Shown here: piece after piece, positions 1-25,893 of the stretch
How the letters are laid out: each line of letters begins with the position of its first letter
How positions within the stretch are numbered: the stretch's first letter is position 1
Notes under the pieces: generated by a model
Told to the model about the DNA's origin: nothing
The model's input: the letters and a program-made list of their open reading frames with translations, nothing else
The model's database searches: none
Position numbers and translations under genes: made by a program
Assembly: GCA_002989075.1 (NCBI GenBank)
Contig: PSQN01000007.1
Span: forward strand, 558,001 to 622,000
Direction of reading: 5' to 3'
Length of the DNA: 64,000 nt
Source of the DNA: Arthonia radiata
Taxonomy: Eukaryota; Ascomycota; Arthoniomycetes; Arthoniales; Arthoniaceae

Positions 1-1
1 T

Positions 2-1000
2 AAAGGCTCTATAGGTAATATAATCTTGTAGACTAGACAGAATGTATATAGCAGCCCTACTATCGCGATTATAAAAGATTCTGTTCTAAAGTAAGCTTCG
101 TATACTAGAGTTAGTGCTACTAGTATAGCGCGCAGCTCCGGCTTAGTACAACTAACAATACTCTAATAATAAAGACCCTAGATATATAAAATCTCGCTTA
201 ACCTGCGAGACGTAAGCGAATCGGCGTAGTAGAGCGTTAACCCGACAAACTCTATTGTAGTATACTAAAAAATTTAGACTAGCTTTAAAAGCTTTAAGCC
301 GCTTTATACGACTCGAATCTAAAAATTTATAAAATTGCAGGACAACAATATAGTTATAATTAGACTACTTAAGAAGAACAAAAAATAGTTTAGAAATAGT
401 ATAAATATATAGATACACCGATATTTAGAAAAAAACTATATATCCGGCCGCTAATAGTACTTAGTAAAGCTTAATTAAGTTCTAAAAGACTTTATACTAT
501 ATAACGGAGAGATAAGAGATAGCCTTAAAGAAGACTTCTATAAGGAGAACGAATATTATCTAGTAGCAATTTAGTAAATTAGATAGTAGAAGGACTACAA
601 GCAGTATTGCTCTGTTTCGGTATAGTTTAACGATATTAAGTAGTGCAACTTAATATTTTAGAAAACCGAGGTAAGTATTAGCAGATATATAGTATACACT
701 AATTATTTTAAGCGTCGTTCGGTACTAGTACAATATATAAAGTACTACTAATTTAGCTACAAAGCAGCTTAATATAGCAACGAAGAACGCTACGGCCGAT
801 ATAGCTAGAGAGGCTATATATATAAAGACTGCTCTAATAAACTATAGTATATTAACTGTAGCTAGGTTTACTCGGCTTAGATTACTTACTATACAGAATT
901 TAAGAATTAACGCTATAATATACGGTTTAAATAAGTATACACTAGGCTTAAACTATAGAGTACCAGCTAATAGAGACAATACAGCTACCGGAGGCCTTCT
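2..1000 (+). pseudogene. LINE ORF1 (Gag-like) remnant
   Basis: Read in frame 2 with TAG/TAA taken as former CAG/CAA, this stretch is continuous from the window edge to about base 1000. Bases 785-835 keep a CCHC zinc-knuckle skeleton in which several Cys and His codons have become Tyr (TGC/TGT to TAC/TAT, CAT to TAT), each explained by TpG-to-TpA or CpA-to-TpA change. A second, shorter knuckle-like stretch follows. The protein would bind element RNA in an active copy. I see no TGA stop in this frame, as expected if RIP alone made the stops. The exact end is not fixed because it overlaps the start of ORF2. Confidence 0.7.
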
Positions 1001-4000
1001 CGGTACTTTAGTATAATATAGGTAAACGCGAGATTACTTATAATAGTATATTTAATAATAAGATATTACGTAACTTTAGTGCTATTATAGTACAAGAGCT
1101 ATACTCGTTTCGTACAGCAGATTAGAGCCTAATAACTCTACTAGTAGTATCGTTATACTAAATATAGTTTCTTTCTATAGATTACTTTTAAACGCAATCT
1201 ACTGCTAATTTGTAGTTAGATCGCTATTGAGCGGGCTTATAGATAAATAAGTTACTTAAGACAATACTAGTAGTAATTAAGTCTATAAATATAGTAGCTG
1301 CTACGTTATACTTACCGATACGAGTTATCCTCTTATTTTTAGTTTATATCCCGTCTATTAAGCTACAAGCGGAAGAACAAGAAATTCTTAAGAAATTTCT
1401 ATAACTAATTATCAACGCAATTATAGAAACTAAGAAATAATATGTTACGCTCAATATACTCGTTACTGAAGACTTTAACCGATACAATCTACTTTAGAGT
1501 AGCCCTAAAGCTATAAAACAAGGCCTTTAAGACGAAGCTAACGCACTATATAAGCTTATTAGATTGTAGAATCTCTGTTCCTTGCTTTCGATAGGAACTA
1601 TTACTTTTAAGAAGGCTCTCGGGTCGTCTACAATTAACCTTGTTTTTGTGTTAGCTTAGCTCGCCGAGGAAGTTATTTAATGCTCAACTCTCCTCGACAA
1701 CTACGGATCGGATTATCTACCAGTTTAGACAGTCTTTGCGATTAAAGCGTCCGTAACAGTATAAGCTTAAAGATATAACTTTAGACAGGCCCCTTAGGCT
1801 AAAATTAATGTCTATATTTTAGAAGAAGTTTAGTACTAGAGCGTTAAGCGTACAATAGATCTAATAATCGATTTTTAAGAAGTAAGACTAGTAAAGGTAG
1901 TTTAAAAAGCTTTAAATCTATACTGCTCTAGATATAAGCCTTCGCTATATACAAAATATTGGTAATCGGCCGACCTTACGGTACTACAAAATAATTACCG
2001 CTACAAACGGAACGCAGCACGCTCTGCTCGCCGCTAGGGTACTAAGTTTCAATATTTAAACCTAGTAGCAAGAGAGGCTCTATATAAGTAGTTAAAAACA
2101 GTTAAGGCTAGAAAGAAAGACTACTAGTTATCCTTTTTTAACGATACTAATAATATTTAGAGAGCCTTATAATATCTTAATTTAGCAAAGTTAAGCGCGT
2201 TTATATCGATACTAGCAATTTAAGTAGATAAAATACTCTATACTAATAACGTATCGATTGCTAATAAACTAGTTTTAGCGTTCTTTCTATAAGTACTAGA
2301 TACAGCGGAGAGACAGTAATAGTTAGTTTTTTAGCAACTCTCCGACACTTCTCTTAGTAACAATAAGATTCGTAGGGCTGTTTTTATCTATAGTCTTAAT
2401 AAAGCTTTAAGTCTTAATGGGCTGCCTACGTTAGTATAGTAAAAGATATAGAAGCCGCTCGGTTTCTACGTCTACCGCCTCTTTAAGAATAGTCTGACCT
2501 AAGCGAAGCTACTAGGGTCGTAGAAAGCCGTAAAAATTGTTTCTCTTAAGAAGTAAGGTAAGCCTAACTATACAGCGCTTAAAGCGTATCGTCTAATTTC
2601 GTTACTCGCTATACTAAGAAAAGCACTAGAGTACTTAGTTGCTAAATATATCTCTTTTTTAGTTAAGAAGTACTCGTTGCTATCCGCTATATATTTTAGT
2701 AGCTATAAACAACGCTCTACTATTTAAGTATTAACGTACTTTTAAGAAAGTATCTATATAGTATAGCGGCAGAAGAAAGTACTTTTAATAATTATATTTA
2801 ATAACAAGAGTACCTTTAACGGGGTCTTAAAAGCTACTCTTTTTGTATGGCTACGCAGTTAGTAGATACTAGAGCAGCTTATACGCTAGATTAATAACTT
2901 TTACTCCGATAGGCAAGTATCTATACTTGTTAACAGATACGAATTACCTAAGGTCTTACTATATTAGGCTGGGCTGCTGTAGAGGTCGCCTTTATTGTCT
3001 ATATTGTTTTTATTCTTTAATACCGATCTAATACAATACAACGTACGGGGAGGAGACTCCTTCGCTTACGTTAATAATTATACAGCTTGGGTAGTAGGAG
3101 ACTCTATAATAGACAATAGAGCTCAAATTAAAGCTAATTTACTGTTAATTCTCTATAAATAGGAAGTAAATAGTAGCGCAATATTTAAGGCCGAGAAGAC
3201 GCAATTCTGCTACTATACGTAGTACCGCGACAAAGTAGATAGTTAGTGTCTTATATTTAAGAATTAAGAGATTTAATCTACTAGAGATATAAAGCTCTTA
3301 GAAGTTATATTCGACTTAGCGCTCCGTTTTAATAAGCATGTTACTAATATAGCAGTAAAAGTAACTAAAGCGGCTCTCGTACTATAGTATCTTTAAGGCT
3401 TACGTCCGGTTATCGCTCGCCAACTATTTACTTTAACGGTTGTACTAGTAGGAGACTATACTTCACCTATCTGGTTACAGCAGGTAGTATTAGAGCTTCT
3501 ACGTTAATTTTATAGGAGCTAACGTATCGCCGTAGCGTCGATTATAGAAGGATTTTAATCTAACTTATTAACAGTTCTAGAGTACGAGGCGGCTATCGCG
3601 CCGTTTTTAAAGCGCTATTTATTGTAAGCTCGGGCCTTCTAAATAGCGATAAATACCCTACTAACTCAATATCCCTTATAAAGACAATATATTAGCTAAA
3701 GTAGGCGATTTTTAAGTTCTCTACAACGTATTTAGAAACAATTTAGCGATATAAATATTGCTCGCCTAGAGGTAATTAAGCTATTCTATATACCTCTATA
3801 GAGACCGCTGCTAAAAGTAGAGGTTCTCTAAAGAGAGAAAGCTATAAAGAAAACTAGTATATAACGGGTTAGTAATATATTTATAGACGCCTTAATTTAG
3901 AAAGAACGTCTAAACCTAGGTATATAGCATTCTAAAGGCTATTAAGTATCTATTCAGGTTGTCGATTACTAAATACTATATATAGGTAAACTCCTTACTA

Positions 4001-4764
4001 TTAAGTAGACTATAATTATAGTAGTACTGCTATACTAGATAGTTAACCTAGTTATAGTTTATTTAGACTATTTAGTAGCGATTTAGTTAATTTAACGACT
4101 AAAGTATTAATTAGGGCAAGTACTTCTACGTAGAATACTTAAATTAGTATATACGTAGATAAGCTTTTACTAGTATTTTAGTTACTCTAAGATAATTAGT
4201 AACGAGCATGTCTATTGGTTAGCTAAGCTAACTACGCTACGTAAAAAAGGAATTAGAAATGTAACAAGGTACTACTTAACAGTTAAGAGTAAAATTTGTA
4301 GACAGAAATTATAATCGGTAGAAAAATTAATAGCAGATATACGTAGTAAGTAAATTATAAGGTATATTAATAAGGCTTTAATAGTACGGCTATATCTTAA
4401 GAAGCTATATAACTCTCTCTTACAATAGAGCGTAGCGATTCTATGTTAGTTACAAATAGAGAAAGCTAAGCTTAACGATTATTTATTAAAGATTAAGGTA
4501 GCTAACACTAATTTATATAAATATAGGTAGCTAGAGATAGTACAACACTTTCTCTTTTATTACTTAAGATAGAGAGAATACTGCGGCAAGCTTCTTAGTT
4601 ATCCTCAATTTAGTAATGTTGCGGCCTTTGTTAGTACATACTTAGCGACTAAACTCCCTACTAGGGAACCGAGGAATAGTCTATTATCGAAGTGGGCTCT
4701 AGATCTAGTAGCGGTTACTGCTACTATTGAGTACGCCTATGCTACAGGGCGTCTCTTACACTAA
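961..4764 (+). pseudogene. LINE ORF2 (endonuclease-RT-RNase H) remnant
   Basis: Frame 1 stays in register for 3.8 kb with no frameshift; only TAG/TAA codons interrupt it. Visible landmarks are an LQYN-like endonuclease start near 1006, the QE motif at 1093, a DFN motif at 1471, and SDY (from SDH) at 1708-1716. The reverse transcriptase catalytic box at 3067-3078 reads YVNN instead of YVDD, and a degenerate RNase H first motif lies near 3883. A former C-X-C...H...C region lies near 4510-4560, where Cys codons are now Tyr. The natural stop appears to be TAA at 4762. The copy cannot be active because catalytic residues are lost and stops are numerous. Confidence 0.8.
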
Positions 4765-5122
4765 GAATAGTACTTACTTGCGTACGCCTCTCCGCCGGCC
4801 TACCGCACCTTCGTACCACGCCGCTAAAGACTAGTGCACCTATAAGCATTAGCCTATAGATCAACAGGCTTTATTGTAGAGCTTAGCGGGAGTCCTGCGT
4901 TAATTTGTACTACCCCCTTCTTTCCTCCGCCACCTACCCACTCTTATACCTATCGACCTACGCACACGCCTAAGTGCTCAGACAGCTAGATAGACGGCTT
5001 TTAGGCAATCAGGAGGCTCCTTTTGGTGAGACGAGGATTAATTATGACTGCTGTTGAGCAGAATTGCTATATATAGTACTTACGTATGCTCATGCCCACT
5101 AGGGCGACACGGCACCTGAATA

Positions 5123-8997: not shown

Positions 8998-11638
8998 CTA
9001 TCTAGCCCTCATCCGCATCCTAGCTGCACGACTGGACTCTGCGACAACAGGCTCCTTCTCAGTGCGCTTGCGCTTTCCCTTCTGGGCCGGCCCGGCTACG
9101 CTGGAACCGCCATGAACTGCATCCGCCTTCCTCTTTCGGCTCGTCTCAGCTGCCTTGGGCTGAGCAACCGCCTTTTCTTCAACCGGCGCCATCTCAATCC
9201 CCTTCACAATATTGAGGCACTCCACCACTCCAGCAGCCTTGATATTCCCCAACGCCTGCATCCGACACAACTGTATCCCAAACTCCTTCAACATCCCCTC
9301 GCCTTGCAGCTGGGTCCAATACTCATACGCGAACCGCTTCAAACAGCCCAGCAGGAACTTGTTCGCGCGCGGTCGCTCCTTGCGCATGTGCTCGTTGAAG
9401 ATTTCGACGAACGCGACTGTCTTGGGTGAGCCGGCGTGTGCGATCAGCTTGATGTTGAGGCGATGGCGAAGCGTGGGGAGCGTGTCGTCGGGGTCGTCGT
9501 CGGATTCGGAGAGCTGCTCGCCGGTGTCGAGGGGGCGTTTGGTCTTGTTGCGGTAGAGGGTTTCGCCGCCTTCGGCTTTGGGGACGGGGTGCTTGATTTT
9601 GGTGCGGGTGGGGCGGCGGAGGTCGGTGGGCATGGTGGGTGGGTTGAGAGTTGTGGAGGTTTGTGCGTTTGTAGGGACTTTGGGCTGTGCGCAAGATTGT
9701 TCGGCCATGGAAGGGTCGGCGATGGCGGGAGGGTTGAGAGCGGGAGAAGGTTCCTTATGTGTAGGGGCCTTGGGAGTTGCTGGAGTCTGTCCGACCGCGG
9801 AGGGGTCGGCGATGGCGATTACCTCCGGAGTCGTGCAGGGTTGTTCATTTTGAGGAGGTTTGGGCTCTGCGGGAGATTGTTCGGCCTGGGAGGAGGGCTC
9901 GGCCATTGTAAGTGGCTTGAGAGCGTCAGAAGCGGTTATGCCGATGTTCTCTGCAGTAGAATCAGTAGGTATGTCGGTGTTGCGTGCAGAAGATCGAGAG
10001 TCATCCGTATTGTGGTGCTCAACAAGACTCGACGAAGATGGCTGGGGTGGTCCGTGCTCTAGGATGGAAAGTGATGCTCCTTGAGGCAGCGGCGTTTCAT
10101 CTGTTTGCTTTTCCTTGGCATCGACCTGTTTCAAGAACACCTGGAGCTCTGCGCCAACATCCTCATGCGCCTCGGCCGAAGGGACACTGTCCGCCTCGCC
10201 ATCCGACAACGTCAAGTCGACCGACGGCCAGCGCTTTTTAGCACGTATCTGTGGGCTCATTTCCCTGGAGAGAGCGTCTGACACTGCGCGAATTTTTACT
10301 GTTCTACGCGACCGCTTCCTCGGTCTGTCGCGACCAACAGGAGCGCGGTTATCTTGTCGTTCTGAGGGGTCGTCTTTCCCGCCTGTTAAATCAATAATCT
10401 CATGATTTCGCCGCTTGCGACCGATATTCTGCTCCGTTCGCGGGGCGTCGTCATGAGTTCCATCCACTTCTACCATCAACTTGTTCGACGCAATTTCGGA
10501 AGTGGGCCCATCGGGACCCCTAGAATGCGTTTCAAGATCAGCAGCCATAGCTCCCGGGCGACGTGGTAGTAGATCGTGAGCTCCAAGGGCATCATTTTGG
10601 AGCTCGCGCTTGCTATTAGGCATATTGCGGGGCTTGTTGTTCACATCTAGTTTGACACTGGCTATCTCTGAGGAGGATTTCGTCTGTCCGAACGCGACTG
10701 ATGGCTTTGCTGCGGCTTCCGGCGTATACGCAGGTGCACCATCGACGGAGTGCGTTTGTGACGCGTCCGAAGGACGTGGAGTCGGGTTGGCTTGATCTGA
10801 ACCCGTTCTACACTCCTGCTGCCCGACGTTACACCTGTCTAGTGCCGGTTTTGTACCTTGCGAGTGTTTCTCACCTCCGTCAACTCCAAGGACAACGTTA
10901 AGCATCACCGTCTGCAGCGAGATGACTCGTGCGCCGCAGTGATAGCGCAGCGGGAGAGACATCTCAGCTGGCGCCGATGGTAGACAGAGTTGAGCCTGAG
11001 CTTCCATGAATGCGAACTTCTTCACATTCTGGATTCGCTCATTCGCAAGAATCGTCTTACAGAAGACAACGTGCTCATTGAACTCGGGAAACTGTATGCG
11101 AACAGTGACATTGTGGTGAGTGTTCGGCAAGAACGGCTCATTGCCATGGACGGCGTCCCAGAAATGTCTCCCAGAAGTATTGACTGGTATACTCCAAGGT
11201 TCCCTCAGTCGCACCGTTGCCTTGGTGTTAACAGCGTCATTCAACCAAACGATTTCCGCTTTTCGACGTTGATGAAACCATGCGTCAGCCCGAGGTCTAT
11301 CAGCTTCACACAACTGGATGATGACATCCACATTGCATGTCTGCAAAAGGTCACCGCGAGGAGTGGCATCAACCCGTCCATTGCTGCTGGGGCGCGAGCG
11401 CTCAATGTGATTGATGTTGACAATGAAGTTGCGGACTTTTTTGTGAAGTGTGGCTGCTATAGACATGTATCTATTCACCTGTCTCGTCTCTACTGTCGAT
11501 AGCGTCTCCCATGAAATCACCCTCCTTTTCGTTGCATGTCGTGCGAATTTTACCGGTCAAGTGCTCCGGACGCAAGTCGAGGCGGATATCAACTGTGGCA
11601 AGGCAATACGTCGACCATTGAGAGGGGTTAGTCTGTTG
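8998..11638 (-). CDS. SUZ12-like PRC2 subunit (VEFS-box protein), 5' end incomplete
   Basis: The main exon is 11456-8998; a 64-bp intron (11520-11457) joins it to an upstream exon running to at least 11638, and the first exon is not resolved. The C-terminal 200 residues resemble the VEFS box of SUZ12: a Tyr/acidic lead-in (GETLYRNKTKRPL, then SESDDDPDD), an IFNEHM segment matching the SUZ12 LWNLHV position, and helices around GMLKEFGIQLCRMQALGN. The N-terminal 200 residues could be the C2-like half. The middle is long, Pro/Ser-rich and disordered, and the tail is Lys/Arg-rich. SUZ12 scaffolds Polycomb repressive complex 2, which methylates H3K27. The match comes from remembered family patterns, not a search; an unrelated nuclear protein is the alternative. 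Confidence 0.68.
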
Positions 11639-16769: not shown

Positions 16770-17618
16770 ATGAACGCCCAGACTACCTTTGATATCACCT
16801 CAACTCCCAATACCCTTACCTATACCTATCGCGACCGTCGAACCAAACATTACGAATTACACTTCTGCTGCAACGACGTCCCTACCTCGGGTTTCTTGGA
16901 CCACCTGCGCCTCAAATGGGGCAGACAAGTCGCAAGCCACGCCGTCGATCATATACCAGGCGGGCGGCCGGAGACCCACGTCGCGAGGATACGTTTTCGA
17001 CCATGGTTCACTGCATTTCCGCCACACGACATCTACTTCAAACGATCCGACTGTCACCTTTTCGCGGGCTTGGGCGCCGGTTATCGCCTCGAACTCCGCC
17101 ACGCATGGGCCGCAGGCGCACCATCCGGGCTAAGGCCAGGCGCCCAGCTAACATGCGCAAATGTTCACGCCGATTTTGGCGACATCGGTGATCACTACGT
17201 GGTTTGCTGCGCGGAGACGGAGCTCACTGTCATGCGCCTCAAGCACCGCAATTTTTGGGAAGCGGGGCTGGTATGTGGCAGCGGGCAGGCCTCCCACGGT
17301 CCCGGAGTGCCTATTGCACGCTTGCGCCAGGCAGGAACGGCGGCGTTGTATCACCATGACTGGCACGGCTGCACTCTTGAATCTCTGAGAAACCAAAACT
17401 GCTTGAGTGACTTATATTTGATCGCTGTGCTGAACCTAGTATACCTCTTTAGCTTTCCGCGTGTGCGAGGGCGGCCTGGCGTGCGGGCGTCTACCGCCGG
17501 GCCTGTGTCGAGAAGTCGTGGCAGCGAGGCTACTGAAGAGTCTGAAATGACGGCTACTGAGGCGTCTGAAATGACGACTGCAGATTCGAGTTCGGTTCTA
17601 GAATACAATCAGGAGTAG
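16770..17618 (+). CDS. Uncharacterised protein, possible member of local orphan family
   Basis: Single-exon frame of 282 aa starting at an ATG. I recognise no domain. It has many aromatic, His and Cys residues arranged as alternating beta-like segments (TLTYTYRDR, HYELHFCC), then a hydrophobic helix near residues 218-232 (LYLIAVLNLVYLF), and a low-complexity tail where ESEMTATEASEMT repeats. The order beta-rich body then one hydrophobic helix resembles the better-defined family at 19.2, 22.1 and 25.0 kb, but residue identity is too weak to claim homology. No signal peptide is visible. Longer than its shadow frames, with balanced codon use, so probably real. Confidence 0.5.
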   Translation: MNAQTTFDITSTPNTLTYTYRDRRTKHYELHFCCNDVPTSGFLDHLRLKWGRQVASHAVDHIPGGRPETHVARIRFRPWFTAFPPHDIYFKRSDCHLFAGLGAGYRLELRHAWAAGAPSGLRPGAQLTCANVHADFGDIGDHYVVCCAETELTVMRLKHRNFWEAGLVCGSGQASHGPGVPIARLRQAGTAALYHHDWHGCTLESLRNQNCLSDLYLIAVLNLVYLFSFPRVRGRPGVRASTAGPVSRSRGSEATEESEMTATEASEMTTADSSSVLEYNQE

Positions 17619-18108
17619 ACCCGTGACTCAGCTAAGCTCAGATTATAATACCTATAAGACGGCGTATAATAGGCTCATGCACATCGCCGGGCGACCCGTC
17701 ATAACTGTTGGTATTTGAAACGCTACAAAGGAGCAAACAAGAGCACAAGAAGAATTGCCTTTATAGTTCGCAACGCTGGTCATCCATATCGCCAATCAGC
17801 TCTATGACCCGGACGGCCCTATGAGACCAGGTATGCTTCTCAACTACCATACCATCGCCCTCAAAGACCCTCTTCTCGCCAGACGCCCACCTACGTTCAA
17901 AACACGCATAGCCATGGGTCAATCCGCCAATTAAAACTCAAGCCCACCTCATACTTACGAAAAAGTCCGGGGCCGGGAAAAACGAAAAGATACAAAGCTG
18001 CATGTCCCGTTCGCACACAACTATACCAACGACAGGTCGCCTTCACAGAGATGTACTAAATCAGAGCCATATCACGACTCCTACCGTCCCGAGGCACCCA
18101 CAGCAGAC
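17619..18108. other. Intergenic, no supported gene
   Basis: No frame or RNA gene that I can support. Confidence 0.4.
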
Positions 18109-18290
18109 GACGATCCGCACGGCACTTCCATCGACGCTCTGCACCGCGAATTCCATCGGCTAGCACCACACCACCTGCGGGCAGAGGCGCCACAGCCTGG
18201 CAACTCGTACAGACGCCCATCACCGCCGCTCCCACAGCACGCCAAGGAAATGATGATCCGCACGGCACGTCCTTCAACGCTCTGCACCGC
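18109..18290 (+). repeat. 39-bp direct repeat, two copies 143 bp apart
   Basis: The segment beginning GACGATCCGCACGGCAC at 18109-18147 recurs with few changes at 18252-18290. Both copies could encode a DDPHGTS-ALHR motif, but in different frames relative to each other, so a single continuous protein is doubtful. Confidence 0.6.
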
Positions 18291-18565
18291 ACGCTCAACC
18301 GTTTGGCGGCGGGACTCGCACAGCCCGAGCGATCGCATCTAAGCCCATCGTACACCACGCCGCCGCCGCAGAATATAGAGGGCTACACCAGCGCCGAGCT
18401 CCTGCACAGCCTTGAAGATTTTGCTGATCACCTCACCGCGCTAAGGCACGGTGCGTACCACATTTACGCTGAGCACGACTGGGTGGCACTTGCGCAGGGA
18501 AGACCAGGGCAGATGTGGGCGGAACCGCCTTGTGTAATGCCGCCAAAGTCTTCAGGTCAGTATGA

Positions 18566-18895
18566 ATGTCACAAGCTCTCTTTCTTATCTTGCATCGTTA
18601 TCGGAATAACTTACTTGACCAGTATGGAACCGTGGACCTCAGACACATGGGCAGAGCTCCGGAGCGAACCATCGTAATCGACTGGCGTAACCAGGTCACA
18701 ACGACAGTGAACTGCGAGGGACACCGTTGCTATGCTGTACGCATGCGTCCTCAGACGCCGACAAGCACACATCTTAAGCCGTTTTCGGACGACGCAAGAT
18801 CAATACGTGTATGTTACCCTGCGAGCGGCCGCCAAAAGCAGGGGGATATGGTAACGTCGATAGACCGCAGCCGCGGACAACCGGCCGCGGCCTAA
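18566..18895 (+). pseudogene. Degenerate or partial paralogue of the 19.2-kb orphan gene
   Basis: This frame of 109 codons contains QYGTVDLRHMGRA followed by TIVIDWRNQ. That parallels EYGHVEFEHTSGQ followed by FTIDWRHYS in the gene 600 bp downstream, with the same spacing. The rest does not align, the C-terminal helix is missing, and the upstream frame at 18303 does not splice cleanly into it. I read it as a decayed or partly annotated tandem copy; a working gene with unseen introns remains possible. Confidence 0.35.
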
Positions 18896-19157
18896 GGCGT
18901 AATTGCCCGTACCCTTCTGGGGCTGATTCAATGTACGTTTCAGAAGTTATGTCAGCCTTCCGGGGCAGCCGGTGCCTTCGATTGTTTGCGGTACAAATTG
19001 GCAGGAATAGCAATACTTGACTTGACTTGCCCGTGAGAGCTTGGGCTTCGGCCCGGAGCCACGCTGTGAGAACATTGTAGTCAGATGACACGTGACATTT
19101 TTGACCACGGACGCATGCGATGGTTGTAAGGGTCTTTTCTCATAAAAGAATCTTACC

Positions 19158-19974
19158 ATGCACATTTATTGCGCTTCGCCCGTCAATACAATGCGGTCCA
19201 AAATCGACACACACCACTACATTATCCACACTGAGAATGAGTATGGACATGTAGAGTTCGAGCATACGAGTGGACAGCCCAACTTCACTATCGACTGGCG
19301 TCATTACAGTAACCCGCGGGGTACGAACGGGAACGCCCCAGGCAGACCGTGGCTGGGCTGTAAGTTCATTTCCTGGAGGATCAATTCCGGGGTCTGACAG
19401 TAGTCCCAGGCGTCCGGAAAGGAGGATCAGAAGGTGAAATTCGATGGGGCCTAAGACGCGTTCGGACCGACAACGCGCTGGTCGTCACGGCGGAACGCAG
19501 CGCGCCCGGCACAGGCGGCAGCAGTTCTATCAGATGGGGCCTAAAAGAAGGCTCGACTGACGTGGTTCGAGGGACTCCGGAAACACATGGGCAAGACACG
19601 CTCATCACGCTTCACAAGGATCTTGAACCCAACAATCTTATAATGATCCACGCGAAGGACTCGGTGGTGCGCATTTATCGCCACCATACTGGAACAGGAG
19701 AGGATCACCTGGGTTCGGGAGGCCATGTCGCAGATGTGCAGCCGCCGCCGGGCGCCAATGGTAATATGCACGGATGGCCATGGCCAGACGGGAGCGTGTT
19801 GACCATTCACCGCCATTTGCTACATCCTACTCAGAAAAATGATATGGTAAGTCATATGAGCTTATCCGGAGCACTGCTCGTGCTAACAGAATGTAGATTA
19901 TATCTTTTGTTGCTGTGGCTTTGTGGATCGTGTCGCCGGATTATGAAGTGCCGACTGTTTCACGTGATCCGTAG
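19158..19974 (+). CDS. Orphan protein, three-exon gene with terminal hydrophobic helix
   Basis: Exons 19158-19359, 19401-19846 and 19897-19974 keep phase and give 241 aa. The last exon is only 78 bp and encodes a hydrophobic helix (IISFVAVALWIVSPD). The middle has two related segments, EIRWGLRR and SIRWGLKE, about 35 residues apart. No known domain. The plan of a beta-rich body followed by a tiny last exon with a hydrophobic helix is shared with the genes at 22.1 and 25.0 kb, suggesting distant common ancestry. Introns are 41 and 50 bp; the first is unusually short. An alternative last acceptor 7 bp upstream would give a different, shorter end. Function unknown. Confidence 0.55.
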
Positions 19975-20407
19975 GCGGGGTCTTCTAGAGCTACGGGCGG
20001 CGCCAACTAGTCCGCGCGCTTTACGCGGGCGGAGTTGACGGATGCTGTGTGTACATGAACAGAACGTGCCTACGCTGTACTGCGGTCTGACTGTCTTCGG
20101 TTCATTTTCCTGCTGCACAGGAAACATGGATTCGATATAGTACGACACTGTAAGCAATGAAGCACGCTCGACCCACCGAAAACGACCATAGTCGCTCAAT
20201 GCTTATCACTTCATGCTCTCTCTGAGCATCAGTGGGCTAACGCTTATCTCGACTTTGGGAACAAGACACCGTGTCTATTCCTGTTGGTCTTGATTCATCT
20301 CCTGCTCGCGCTTCTTGCGGTCTCCAAGTCGTTTTGTGGTGTAGAAAGGTTACCTGACAACAGCACCCTCAGAATACATGCTCCACCCTCCACTATGCAG
20401 TTCAAGT
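19975..20407. other. Intergenic, no supported gene
   Basis: No frame that I can support on either strand. Confidence 0.35.
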
Positions 20408-20699
20408 CTAGAACAGGGAAGCTTCTGGGGATGCTCGAGGCTTCTCAATCTCGGCCTGAGCTTGCTTTCGTTTGTTCATTTCGTGAAGTTCTTTTAGGTA
20501 AGGGTTAGTGCTGGGGTCTTGGGGTACGAAATGGTGATAAGTAGTATGCTCGGATGCTACGAGATGTCAGCTTTCACTTTGCTTTCTGTGGGAGGATCGA
20601 TTGCAGATGCGTACACGTGTCACTCAGCTCGCTATCGGTCCTGCGGTCTTTGTGCTTGCGCCGCGGAAACCGGGAGAAGAGGCGTCTTCCGACATGCAT
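20408..20699 (-). CDS. Small basic protein, possibly mitochondrial, function unknown
   Basis: Two exons, 20699-20624 and 20556-20408, flank a 67-bp intron with a CTGAC branch and GTAG acceptor; joined phase is correct and gives 74 aa. The first 25 residues are rich in Arg with spaced Phe/Leu (MHVGRRLFSRFPRRK), like a mitochondrial presequence. The second half is charged and helical (NPYLKELHEMNKRKQAQAE). No domain recognised. Neither exon is long enough to stand out as an open frame. A chance frame is possible, but splice consensus and composition agree. Confidence 0.45.
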
Positions 20700-22079
20700 A
20701 GTGGAAGTTGTTTGGCCGGTGAGTCTTGCTCAAAGGCTCTGTCTTTTGAGAGATGCGAAATAAGGATCAGAGTCTGAATGAATAGAAGTTGGATGGAAGT
20801 CAACGGGACCAGTTTCCACGGTTCGTACCGGAGATGCCAACCAGGAGATGTGTCCTCTGAGGGAATTATAGGTGTTATACAGAGCACAACCATTCGACCG
20901 TATCCGGCCGTACGTGGCCCCAGTAGCTGTCACTTGTCGTGGGTTTACGATCGCTTACCTGAAATGCTTCGAATTCAGAGTTCTTCCTTGCTCGGGGCTA
21001 TGGAACCGTTGCCCCATTATGCTTAGGACACTATGTTGCACGAAGCACGCCAGCGTGGTCTACCGTCTTGAAAAAGCCTGAGAGGTATCGAGATCATCTC
21101 TTTGGCTGGCTGCGCTATGTTGAGCAAGCCATGACTGCCGACCACAAGTCGCACGCGCCTTCCGCCTGTAGCAGCTACCGCATTCTTACAGTCATGCATG
21201 CAGTGTTTACTTGCGTTTAAGCGTGCATGTACTCTTTCACGCTATTTCGTGTCGTGGTGTCAACTCAAATTTCCAACGTCCCAAAGGATACGTGTCACGA
21301 TCTGGACCATTGGCGAAAGGTCAGTGCAGAGAAGTGCGAGGTCCTGCAGCCTTGTGCGAACTGACACCTTTCATTGCCTTGCATCCGTCCACCGGTTTCA
21401 ACTGCTTCGTTGCAGTCAGAACCTCTGGAACAAGCTGAAAGTGTCCAGATTCTGGCACTGGGAAAAAGTGAAAGATGAAAGGTGGTGTAAAAGATGCGGC
21501 CAAGTAGCCAAGTTGAAGCTAGCGGGCTCCGTCAATATCCTTGTGGCATTCTCTTTAGTTCCTGTTGACAGTCATGAGTGTCTCGTTTCTCGCTCACGTC
21601 ACCAATCTTGGCATTATCTAGCTCTTGGCATCTGCCGCCAGTCTCTCTCACCTCTTGACTGCTTACCTTCAAGTACGCTCGAGGACGGGCTGCCTCGGCT
21701 CAGTATATTATGTTAGCGTCTGTCTCCATCACGAGAGCTTACAGACAGTGATCCATAGAAGCGCAGCGAACGCTTGTGAAGGCTCAGAGGCGCTCCTTGT
21801 TCAACAAGGAGCTATGGCCCAGGCGTATCAAGTCCTTTTTGCGATGACCAGCTGGCAAATGTCTGCCGGCTAGGGTGTCGAGGCGGATACTAATTTTTCC
21901 AGTGAACGGGAAGCCGTATCCGCGATGGCCAGCTGGTCATTGCGCATCAGGTTTGAGAAGGTAAACGCGCCGTCTTCGGGAACACTTCCGTCAGTCAACC
22001 TTCATAATTCAGCGCTCCGCCTGCAAAATAACCGTCACGACACTTTGAAACTCAGAAAAATTCTTACATCAAAAACACC
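20700..22079. other. 1.4-kb stretch with no supported gene
   Basis: A 172-codon plus-strand frame (21198-21716) is present, but its composition is Cys/Ser/Arg-rich and unlike a protein, with no domain or sensible splice partners. No RIP signature and no RNA gene seen. Confidence 0.4.
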
Positions 22080-22976
22080 ATGTCTTTCAACGTGACTGAC
22101 GAACGGCTTCGTAGATATGTTGTGCCTTTGATAAGCGCAGGCAATACATATAGCTACAAGATAACAAAGACAGGAAGCATGGCTGGACCACACCATCTGA
22201 AATTTGATCATCGTAACAATATTTCTGTACATGGCTACATACACCATATGCAGCACCCGAGATGGGGCGACCAACACTCACGCCTCCACCTCGCAGGGTT
22301 GCAGCCTGCAGAAAACAAAATTTGTGTGTGCTACTCTGCACAGATCTCAAACGCATGGAGCGCAGATATCAAGCTTTCCCCCCGCAGGCCATAGCTCAGG
22401 TAACTAACAATCATTACACAGCTCTGCAGGACTCTGAAGAGGTTGAATTGATGACGATCGTCTTCACGAAAGACCCCAACGTCTACTACACAATAAAGCC
22501 CCTCGGCATCAAGCTCATGGCGTACATGTCAATGTCTGAGGGGAAAGATCATGAGGTCCACCTCACCACCAATCGCGCCGACCGAGGAGCAGATTCTGCA
22601 CTTGGACTTCGGACATGCGAGGCTTCCTGTACGCGTGCCGATCGCCAATTTAAGGTTCTGATAGATGGAAAAGAGATAGCTTCGGGCAAGCTCCCACCAA
22701 CCTATCATCAAAGGAAATGGTTCGAGTTGCCCGACTTCACACCTATTCTTCATGGAACAGAAACAGAACCTACAGTGGGTGAGGTGATGATGAAGCATGG
22801 TACGAACATGGCTGTGGTACGTTTATCACCCAATGTTTTTTCTCATTGCCATCGGAACAGACCTTCCGAATCGCTACGGTTGTACGATGCACTGACACGA
22901 GTAGATTGATGCTATTGTTGCGGCTCTGCACGGAGCGGAGCACCAACCGCATCTCCCAGAGGTTCACGAAGGGTAG
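22080..22976 (+). CDS. Orphan family protein A1
   Basis: Exons 22080-22323, 22422-22816 and 22905-22976, in phase, 236 aa. The first intron has a CTAAC branch. Recognisable shared motifs with the 25-kb copy: MSFNVTDERL at the start, KFDHRNNISVHGYIH near residue 41, YYTIKPLGIK in the middle, LIDGKEIASGK, and a last 72-bp exon encoding IDAIVAALHGAEHQPHLPEV. No signal peptide and no domain I know. The body looks beta-rich with one closing hydrophobic helix, an arrangement also seen in tubby/LURP-one-like folds; that link is speculation. Confidence 0.65.
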
Positions 22977-23833
22977 TGCGGGTGTGCAGGTTGACCGAAG
23001 TTCGATCCGTAGAGCGTAGAATTTATAGAACTAAGATTATCAATGCATACCACATACAGATTTCCTCTATACTCCAGGATACATGTTGCCACCTAGCGAG
23101 AAAATGAGTCTTTGAGATAAAGGCAACGAAAAACGAGGGCAACTACGCATACACCAGCTTAATTTCGATGACCGTGTTGACGGAACATCCAAGAATGAGC
23201 GATGTCCACTTTTCGCGACCGCCGTATGGCTGTTGCACGTGCGGATATACGTATCTAGCACCGAAGAACCTGACGGCCTGCGATAATGTACGTCCTACAA
23301 ACAGTCTGTCACCGCCGTCGCTGGACTAGTCGGCGCCCGTAGTCCTCCAAGCCTCGCAGACATTCGAGGAAGTCCTCCGCCGCTCGAGCCACCAGATGGC
23401 GTTTGGCACAGATCTGTGATTGTTCCCTTTGGAGCATTCATTGTACCTGCTGCGCGTTCGCGAGATGAAGCGTGGCCGCTGGCAAGTGCCAGGCAGATCG
23501 TGCCGTTCCGAGTTATTAGGCGACGGTACGGAAGTATGCGGATCAAGCAGCCGAGGAGGACGGCGCATGGGATTGCTGGGTGCATGTGACGACGCCGCAG
23601 CCTTGTGTTATGGCTAAGATGTTGCGTGTCTAGGCCGTGCTAGAGCGTGATAGAACCGCTCGGGCGTTACAGTCATTGGCCACCGGCGTTTGCACAGCGA
23701 CCGCTACCCAAAGCGCAAACTAGAACGGTATATATCCGCTCTTTCAGGCACGCAAGACCATCCCACCACACCTATCGACTCACGACTCTGGGTGGAGTCT
23801 CTAACTTCAACAGTGACACCCATCTCACTATCC
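22977..23833. other. Intergenic, no supported gene
   Basis: Several frames under 100 codons on both strands, none with coding character. The stretch just left of 23833 resembles DNA left of 24452, part of a duplicated block. Confidence 0.4.
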
Positions 23834-24076
23834 CTATCTATGCCGCTTCGCCTCGGCCATATCCTTCCTTACCTGGGCCCATTTCTGCTGCTCTGTCTGT
23901 TGAGGTACACCTGCTTTGCGCTCAAGATCCGCGAGGGTCTCCTCATGCCCTAGATCACCGCACTCATTAGCTTTAGCGGTATACAGAGGGGTGAAGAACT
24001 TGCTCTTTCCTCCAAAGGGATTGAGGTACGAAGCGGCATGGTAGACAGCATTTCCAGCGCCTCTTACGTGGTCCAT
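23834..24076 (-). CDS. Small charged orphan protein C1
   Basis: Single exon, 80 aa, start chosen at the ATG of MDHVRGAGNAVYH. The first 35 residues are aromatic and Gly-rich (AASYLNPFGGKSKFF), the rest is a charged helix ending ADLERKAGV...RKDMAEAKRHR. The same end is visible in the frameshifted copy 600 bp to the right, so the frame is under or was recently under constraint. No signal peptide or known domain. Similar small, charged, single-domain proteins are common in Dothideomycetes and usually uncharacterised. Confidence 0.55.
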   Translation of the reverse strand: MDHVRGAGNAVYHAASYLNPFGGKSKFFTPLYTAKANECGDLGHEETLADLERKAGVPQQTEQQKWAQVRKDMAEAKRHR

Positions 24077-24451
24077 TGTTGGGTCTGTTGAAACGCACAC
24101 GGTATAGTTGGGTTTTGCTTTGGGGATTTATGTTCGTGAGTTGATCAACAGTGAGAGAGAATAGAGCTATGATATAGACCTCTTTTTATTTGTCACGTTA
24201 GCAGGGTTTTGAGTTTGGTGAGGAACAGCTGTCCTCTACACGATTAGATACGAAACCCGCCGCGGAGAAAACACGCACGTGCATTAACATAGCATCGACC
24301 TCGTTCACAGCATGCACGAGCATTAAGAAAGCACTTGCTTTGTTTACGAGACGCTACCATGACTTCAAACCTAATAGATTGGGGAGACACACACACGTTC
24401 ACTATCTGGAGTGGATATATCTTCTAGATACGCAAAGTTCTACTACCCGAT
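24077..24451. other. Spacer between duplicated C1 and C2 units
   Basis: No gene seen. The right part (around 24415-24470) resembles the DNA around 23730-23790, showing that the duplication includes 3' flanking sequence. Confidence 0.45.
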
Positions 24452-24645
24452 CTATCGACTCGAGGCTCCAGGTGCGCATTGACACACATACCACCTTTCT
24501 TTATCCTGCCGCTTCGCCTCCGCCATATCCGCCCTGGTTTTTTCCCACTCCTTCTTGTTCTGCTCAAAGCCTTTCTGTTCAGGCCTGACGCCTGCCTTAA
24601 GCTCAGCAACACGTGCGCATCACCAGCGCCGGTGTCATTGCGGCC
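24452..24645 (-). pseudogene. Frameshifted paralogue C2 of the 23.8-kb gene
   Basis: From 24613 leftwards the minus strand encodes RVAELKAGVRPEQKGFEQ and then TRADMAEAKRQDKERWY, clearly parallel to TLADLERKAGVPQQTEQQ and RKDMAEAKRHR of C1. Directly upstream the matching frame (NDTGAGDAHV) is off by one base, so a single-base change breaks the gene. The N-terminal aromatic part is not found. Either a young pseudogene or an assembly error. Confidence 0.5.
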
Positions 24646-25005
24646 TTCGTTGCAAATGGGGATTGTTCTCTGAACCCGACGCAGCGCCGTGTGATGGACA
24701 CACCAAAACCTGAAGTCGTAAGGTCTTGCACAATCAAATCTCCAGCAATGCTGACTGCTGACGCTGTCCTCCTGTCCCTCTTGTTTTGCCGCCTGGGTGA
24801 ACTTGGGGATGCCAGTCAACAAAGCCAAAGGAACACATATCACACATCATCTGACGCCTCTTGTGGTCTCCTTGATTGTGCGCGCTCCCTTGTTGCGACA
24901 TCAGGTCTTACCGCACTATCATATCGAGTTCCTGAAGGATGGTCTTCTCGACGGGTAAATCAGCTTGACGCGCCTCCGCTACCGCCAGTCCGCCGCGAAA
25001 GTGCC

Positions 25006-25893
25006 ATGACGTTTTCATTCCGCGATTCGCAGCTTCAAGAGCTAGAGAGTTGAAGCCTACTCTGTGCCCGACTATACACACGGCACCTTACCTCGATATT
25101 AGGCGCAGAAAGAGCGTGGTGTCATTCTACATAGCTCACAGCGACTGCATTTCGACCATGCGGGTCCTATCTTTGTCTATGGTTACTTGCACGACTCGCA
25201 CTACCATAGATGCGATTACCTGACTGAGATGGCTGCTAAGCTCGGGAAGCGAGAGGACAAGCTGTGTAAGTGGACCTTTACAAGATTCGCAATGCGTTGA
25301 TCACCCTCAGCAGACATGTTCCTCAGATGTGTGATGACAAGTATGCAGCTGATTGACATGTGGTCCCATCCAGCCGTAGTAAGCATCAACCATGAAGAAC
25401 TGCTGAACGTTACCTTGGTGCATGACACCAGAATTTATACAATGAATCCCCTTGGGATGAGTTTCCAAGCGGGCGTAGTGGAAGCTGGCATTGACGATGA
25501 TGAGGTTGTGCTCTCAACGGACGGCATTGAGCAGTCGTTCGACCCAGCAGTTTCGGCCCAGCATTGCGCAGCTTTGGTAGGGATCGACGCATTCCGAATT
25601 GTGGTGGACGGGCAGGAGATTGCATCAGGCAGAGCGCCAGAGCGTTCCGCGCTCGATATGCTGCGTTGGATCGAGCGGCCAGAGGCGTGGGAAATACAAA
25701 TCAAGCGCGATACCAATCTTGCTGTGCTATGTTCAAATCTTCTCAAGATTGTTTGCTCCGAACTCGTTATAAGCTCTTCGCTTCCTCGGCGAGCTGACGA
25801 CGTAAACAGATGGACACTGTCATAGCTACGTTATTGCACGCCGTAGAGCGTCAGCCAAGTCTGCCATTCATCAAAGAACGGGCTTGCTCGTAA
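25006..25893 (+). pseudogene. Orphan family paralogue A2, 5' part disrupted
   Basis: Conserved pieces line up with A1: MTFSFRDSQL at the start, HFDHAGPIFVYGYLH near 25148, IYTMNPLGMS, VVDGQEIASGR, and a last exon (25810-25893) encoding MDTVIATLLHAVERQPSLPF. The introns 25266-25373 and 25724-25809 match those of A1 in position and phase. Between the start codon and the FDH motif, however, a TGA at 25051 and two frame changes interrupt the reading. A weak intron (donor GTTGAA at about 25049, acceptor at about 25112) could just rescue it. Hence the call is pseudogene or mis-modelled gene. Confidence 0.5.

Follow-up and report, generated by a model that had tools for sequence, protein, structure and literature searches.

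Do the neighbouring genes of Arthonia radiata that each end in a very small exon encoding a hydrophobic peptide form one family of paralogues, and what kind of protein could they encode? The window, meaning the whole analysed stretch of 64,000 nucleotides (nt), is C4:558001-622000 in a genome of 33.5 Mb and 16 contigs whose short introns and gene content suit a filamentous fungus. It holds three such genes, here called B, C and D, and we found a fourth, gene E, on another contig. Judged by their sequences these are two families, B/E and C/D, joined by gene plan and layout only. Both families are, we are confident, real coding genes, and we tentatively read their products as tubby-like barrels plugged by a terminal helix.

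The C/D pair is supported by 32% identity over 102 amino acids (tblastn E value 1.6e-8; reciprocal 1.2e-8; none of 500 shuffles as good) and by the common motifs FDH...GYxH and VDGxEIASG, the latter read as IDGKEIASG in C. Homology extends to the exon 3 peptides, also past the helix (QP.LP; 0/2000 shuffles), and exon 2 of C and of D, used as genome queries, each matched only C and D. Gene E was found with exon 2 of B, which matched one more place in the genome (C1:2668494-2668841; 42% identity, E value 3.7e-6). It has the same plan as B, with exons at 1254-1443, 1502-1875 and 1927-1959 (positions in extract L007), and is flanked by long open frames of 446 amino acids before and 758 after it (extract L014). 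As a genome query the spliced E returned only E and B, and the exon 3 peptides of B and E show a weak likeness (66/2000 shuffles). The searches with B, C, D and E therefore point to two pairs in the genome, within the reach of six-frame tblastn at E values up to 10.

Between the pairs we found no sequence link. Comparison of B with C and D gave shuffle z scores of 1.0 and -1.2, respectively, hhalign assigned B/E versus C/D a probability of 0.03% (with earlier models of C and D, see below), and the exon 3 peptides gave no shuffle signal across the pairs. A single sequence family of B, C and D was consequently dropped, as neither shuffles nor hhalign support it; intron number, intron phases and a short last exon are common to all members, and homology among all of them is not found. 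The preliminary description of this DNA had seen here a nursery of orphan paralogues with three exons and a 72-84-bp last exon after a phase-0 intron. The exon plan, the hydrophobic last-exon peptides, the homology of C and D and the orphan status in the libraries searched all hold, and E extends the plan. The nursery itself survives as C-D paralogy and a common plan, with its members divided between two sequence families and E on a different contig, and the sequences do not support B as a paralogue of C and D.

All gene models in the window lie on the forward strand. Gene B consists of exon 1 at 19158..19359, ending in phase 1, exon 2, the body, at 19401..19846 and exon 3 at 19897..19974 (78 nt including the stop; IISFVAVALWIVSPDYEVPTVSRDP). 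In gene C, exon 1 (22080..22323) ends in phase 1 at the donor GTGTGT, exon 2 (22422..22816) follows an acceptor with a CTAAC branch-like site, consistent with D, and exon 3 (22905..22976) has 72 nt including the stop (IDAIVAALHGAEHQPHLPEVHEG). The 5' part of gene D (25006..25265) has the start-like MTFSFRDSQLQ, a frame change near 25049 and a TAG at 25100-25102, and is open over 25103-25265 (LHFDHAGPIFVYGYLH); exon 2 (25380..25723) is entered in phase 1 and left in phase 0 at the weak donor GTGCTA, and exon 3 (25810..25893) has 84 nt including the stop (MDTVIATLLHAVERQPSLPFIKERACS). The last exon of E comprises 33 nt (IVAMLGLALL and the stop).

The chosen models of B, C, D and E all have three exons with intron phases 1 then 0. 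Intron lengths are 41 and 50 nt in B, 98 and 88 nt in C, and 114 and 86 nt in D. Donors read GTAAGT or GTGAGT in five of the eight introns (both of B, the first of D, both of E); the others are GTACGT (second of C), GTGTGT (first of C) and GTGCTA (last of D). In four of the eight introns (second of B, both of C, last of D) a branch-like site, CTRAY, precedes the acceptor border, ending 8-13 nt before it; in the other four it is 2, 26 or 38 nt off or absent. Several acceptors are possible for the first introns of C and D, and we selected among them by frame, branch-like site and mutual agreement; earlier models had first introns of 71 nt (C) and 48 nt (D), and the present lengths of 98 and 114 nt were preferred since C then has a branch-like site and C and D match better. 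For the first intron of E a phase-2 alternative is possible by eye, and the phase-1 choice also fits the border in B (G|L..VRKGG vs G|S..IREGG). Since the first intron could be bordered differently in C, D and E, the uniform phase 1 is valid for the chosen models, and the phase-0 intron preceding the last exon is the firmer of the two features.

The pattern of substitution argues for coding. Identity by first, second and third codon position is 0.48/0.62/0.37 between C and D (191 aligned codons), 0.52/0.55/0.34 between B and E (190 aligned codons) and 0.57/0.78/0.35 for exon 3 of C and D (23 aligned codons); the order second, first, third is a sign of selection on the protein. Codon usage, scored over six frames with ten long frames of the window as reference, is best in the proposed frame for six of eleven stretches (A and the 18.1-kb frame, both considered below, B exon 1, C exon 2, the tail of D exon 1 and D exon 2), with low scores in A and the 18.1-kb frame despite their rank. 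Exon 2 of B is ambiguous; for exon 1 of C, as for the last exons (23-27 codons) of B, C and D, the proposed frame is not the best.

The common element of the two families is the hydrophobic segment at the end of the protein. The last exons encode IISFVAVAL... (B), IDAIVAALH... (C) and MDTVIATLL... (D), and the most hydrophobic 10-mer is the terminal one in all five proteins when frame A is included. In the four genes B, C, D and E (4/4) it starts at most two residues from the border of exon 3. Shuffling placed the maximum in the region of exon 3 in 215 (B), 196 (C), 297 (D) and 97 (E) of 2000 cases, and position and strength together were matched in 4, 14, 217 and 3 of 2000, respectively. Gene D is weak by itself, with 1.95 for the terminal 10-mer against 1.93 for another at residue 117. 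If the last intron of B is retained, the frame stays open from 19846 to 20038 and encodes a long hydrophobic stretch (SGALLVLTECRLYLLLLWL); such read-through was not found in C or E, where the frame closes after no more than about 30 and 3 residues, respectively.

What fold could such a segment complete? A tubby-like barrel fits because a strand-rich body is followed by a short hydrophobic helix, and we regard a barrel of this type, plugged by the helix, as a reasonable guess rather than a result, at somewhat less than an even chance. The proteins of both families would then be intracellular, of about 200-240 amino acids, with a strand-rich meander barrel and the last-exon helix as plug; they might be soluble or peripheral membrane-binding proteins (lipid or phosphoinositide) or scaffolds. 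It is unlikely, in our estimate, that B/E and C/D are also diverged branches of one fungal superfamily, a fast-evolving side line of tubby and LURP-one proteins in which the central plug helix has its own exon and splicing, by including or skipping that exon, would set whether the barrel is plugged. The preliminary description had guessed at tubby/LURP-one-like folds from the layout, which does fit; profile searches brought no match, and structure prediction gave, for exon 2 of E alone, an all-beta meander of 8-10 successive strands at low confidence.

Several results, added to the missing link between the pairs, weigh against the tubby-like barrel. None of eleven Pfam queries matched (eight exon pieces or frames at E values up to 1; spliced B, E and C up to 10), and the LOR profile PF04525 found nothing in the genome (its control matched in 3/14). 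The single genome match to PF03803 is one scramblase on contig C11, and alignment with it by hhalign was not significant (C/D, E value 0.1, probability 0.6%; B/E, E value 0.17). The better of two AlphaFold models, that of E exon 2, has a mean predicted local distance difference test score (pLDDT) of 48.5 and a predicted template modelling score (pTM) of 0.41, and none of its 1337 Foldseek matches reaches an E value of 0.001 (best 0.019). The last exon of E, moreover, gives 10 residues only, which is short for a barrel plug. PF01167 had no genome match and no match in its controls either, and in the hhalign comparison of C/D with the scramblase, exon 2 of C was aligned with the first part of the matched domain. 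Tubby-type chains are absent among the 50 Foldseek and the VIA-align matches listed for the E exon 2 model, which says little because that model is so low in confidence.

Searches further afield agree with the orphan status of the two families. The B-E and C-D alignments matched no PDB sequence at E values up to 10. In a prokaryote genome collection, queried with the B-E alignment and not with C/D or A, 50 pattern stretches were returned and none was confirmed; in viral contigs the same holds for 100 stretches from B-E and 156 from exon 2 of C-D. Among the titles and abstract openings listed for the tubby, LURP-one and orphan-gene literature none describes such genes, the motifs themselves not being searched.

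A substantial possibility, though one we would not expect to hold, is that B/E and C/D are unrelated lineage-restricted orphan families of merely similar layout, in which the helix closes an ordinary non-tubby globular fold and has no common origin. Neither shuffles nor hhalign connect the pairs, phases 1 and 0 would be expected to coincide by chance in about 1/9 of cases (our own estimate), and meanders of the fatty-acid-binding type take most of the top Foldseek ranks of the E exon 2 model, though without significance. However, the proteins are alike in size, exon number and phases (in the chosen models), the hydrophobic segment sits at the border in 4/4, and B lies about 2 kb from C.

It is improbable that the last exon supplies a C-terminal membrane (tail) anchor to a cytosolic beta-rich domain. 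A, B (IISFVAVALWIV) and E (IVAMLGLALL) have uncharged hydrophobic runs, and mean hydropathy over 19 residues reaches at most 1.81 in A and 1.58 in B, where 1.6 is the usual threshold for a membrane span. However, the residues aspartate and histidine occur within the segment in C and D, the last exon of E ends 10 residues on, and the best 19-mer means of C (1.22), D (1.38, away from the helix) and E (1.53) are all below 1.6. In C, D and E the terminal segment is short or polar for a membrane span.

The local copies, among them the possible fragment H described below, show ordinary duplication and loss, and D may be a decaying copy, on account of the frame change near 25049, the TAG and a missing GT at the site of C's last donor. 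Its start resembles that of C (MTFSFRDSQLQ vs MSFNVTDERLR; 10/1000 shuffles) and its frame closes after 15 residues; FDHAGPIFVYGYLH follows in a different frame that is interrupted by the TAG, and the piece just upstream of the TAG is not clearly C-like (276/1000 shuffles). An extra small intron could bypass both the frame change and the TAG.

Frame H (18566..18895, forward strand, 109 amino acids), the 18.6-kb frame, resembles exon 1 of B (..YG.V...H....TIDWR) and is a possible fragment of a B-like copy. Compared with B exon 1 (..QYGTVDLRHMGRAPERTIVIDWRN) it scores 54 points, reached in 1/5000 shuffles (tblastn E value 0.30), and of the 1276 frames with 30 amino acids or more it comes second, behind B exon 1's own frame. 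The margin is small, with 53 points for the B exon 2 frame and 50 for one at 47.0 kb; the position of H, 0.5 kb upstream of B, argues for the fragment reading. Against E exon 1 its score was met by 100/5000 shuffles, and against C exon 1 we found nothing. The proposal that H and A are further relatives is hence weakly supported for H, towards B exon 1 and not C exon 1, and for A it finds no support in sequence. Frame A (16770..17618, forward strand) is a single uninterrupted frame of 282 amino acids with the hydrophobic LYLIAVLNLVYLF and then a tail of about 55 residues. No relative of it was detected in the genome (best z 3.4, with C, 6/500 shuffles), hhalign against the families gave a probability of 0.1% (one of two comparisons on the earlier C and D models), and A has only its layout in common with the other genes. 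Two T-cell-receptor chains matched by A in the PDB (E values 1.7 and 1.9) were regarded as chance, and an AlphaFold model of A without alignment (pLDDT 34.1) was useless and was not taken to fold search.

Other small repeats occur nearby. The frame at 18093-18674 was rejected as a relative: in the window tblastn finds itself and its own internal repeat (18087-18290; DDPHGTS..ALHR; 61 nt, 79%) and nothing in B, C or D at E values up to 1, and a genome search likewise returned only the frame and that repeat. The 23.5-23.6 kb region, tried as its decayed relative, gave no tblastn match at E values up to 1. On the reverse strand, a small frame of 97 amino acids at 23834-24127 (..RKDMAEAKRHR) has a partial second copy 0.7 kb off at 24506-24604 (tblastn E value 0.009; DNA repeat of 59 nt, 73%), a further local duplication with decay. 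It is very improbable that the models are frames open by chance, or functionless gene debris, in a repeat-bearing region: the broken-looking 5' part of D, the perhaps fragmentary H and the low or ambiguous codon usage of A, B exon 2, C exon 1 and the three third exons would suit it, but the codon-position gradient in both pairs and in the third exon of C-D, the GTRAGT donors in 5/8 introns and the place of E between long open frames on another contig speak against it.

Elsewhere in the window, an RNA12-domain gene (5.6-7.9 kb), a piece of a mitochondrial carrier (15.8-16.1 kb) and an aldehyde dehydrogenase (31.3-32.7 kb) are among the neighbours. Positions 1-4800 are AT-rich (GC content 0.32-0.42 per 2-kb step) with many stops by eye, and look like the relic of a putative retroelement after repeat-induced mutation. 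A long frame on the reverse strand (9001-11556) has a below-threshold match to the VEFS-box of polycomb proteins (E value 0.0007; 19.9 bits vs a cut-off of 23).

Among known systems, the tubby, LOR (PF04525) and phospholipid scramblase (PF03803) proteins resemble B/E and C/D in the strand-rich body as modelled, the C-terminal hydrophobic segment and the similar size, LOR proteins having about 200 amino acids. As marks of that group we used a match to PF04525, PF03803 or PF01167, a 12-stranded closed beta-barrel and a C-terminal hydrophobic helix filling the barrel. The terminal hydrophobic segment is seen in A-E, its helicity and burial being putative; however, B/E and C/D have no such profile match, and the scramblase on contig C11 is without an intron before the C-terminal helix, because its 577-amino-acid frame is uninterrupted through the end of the Pfam match. 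Work on LOR (PMC10264818) is on the side of the tubby-like reading. The fatty-acid-binding-type (lipocalin-like) meander barrels are alike in that they supply most of those top Foldseek ranks, and to our knowledge they have no terminal hydrophobic plug helix. If the tubby-like reading is true, some 'orphan' genes of filamentous fungi would be unrecognised members, eroded in sequence, of an old superfamily, identifiable through gene plan and not through sequence; if it is not, we would have a small orphan family of the ordinary sort, duplicated and decaying locally. Orphan families are of a known kind in fungi, and ours agree with them in the lack of Pfam matches, the few copies and the local duplication and decay. 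They differ in that B/E and C/D, two families by sequence, have the intron-phase plan and the helix of the last exon in common, and this plan of a helix on its own exon is the part worth following.

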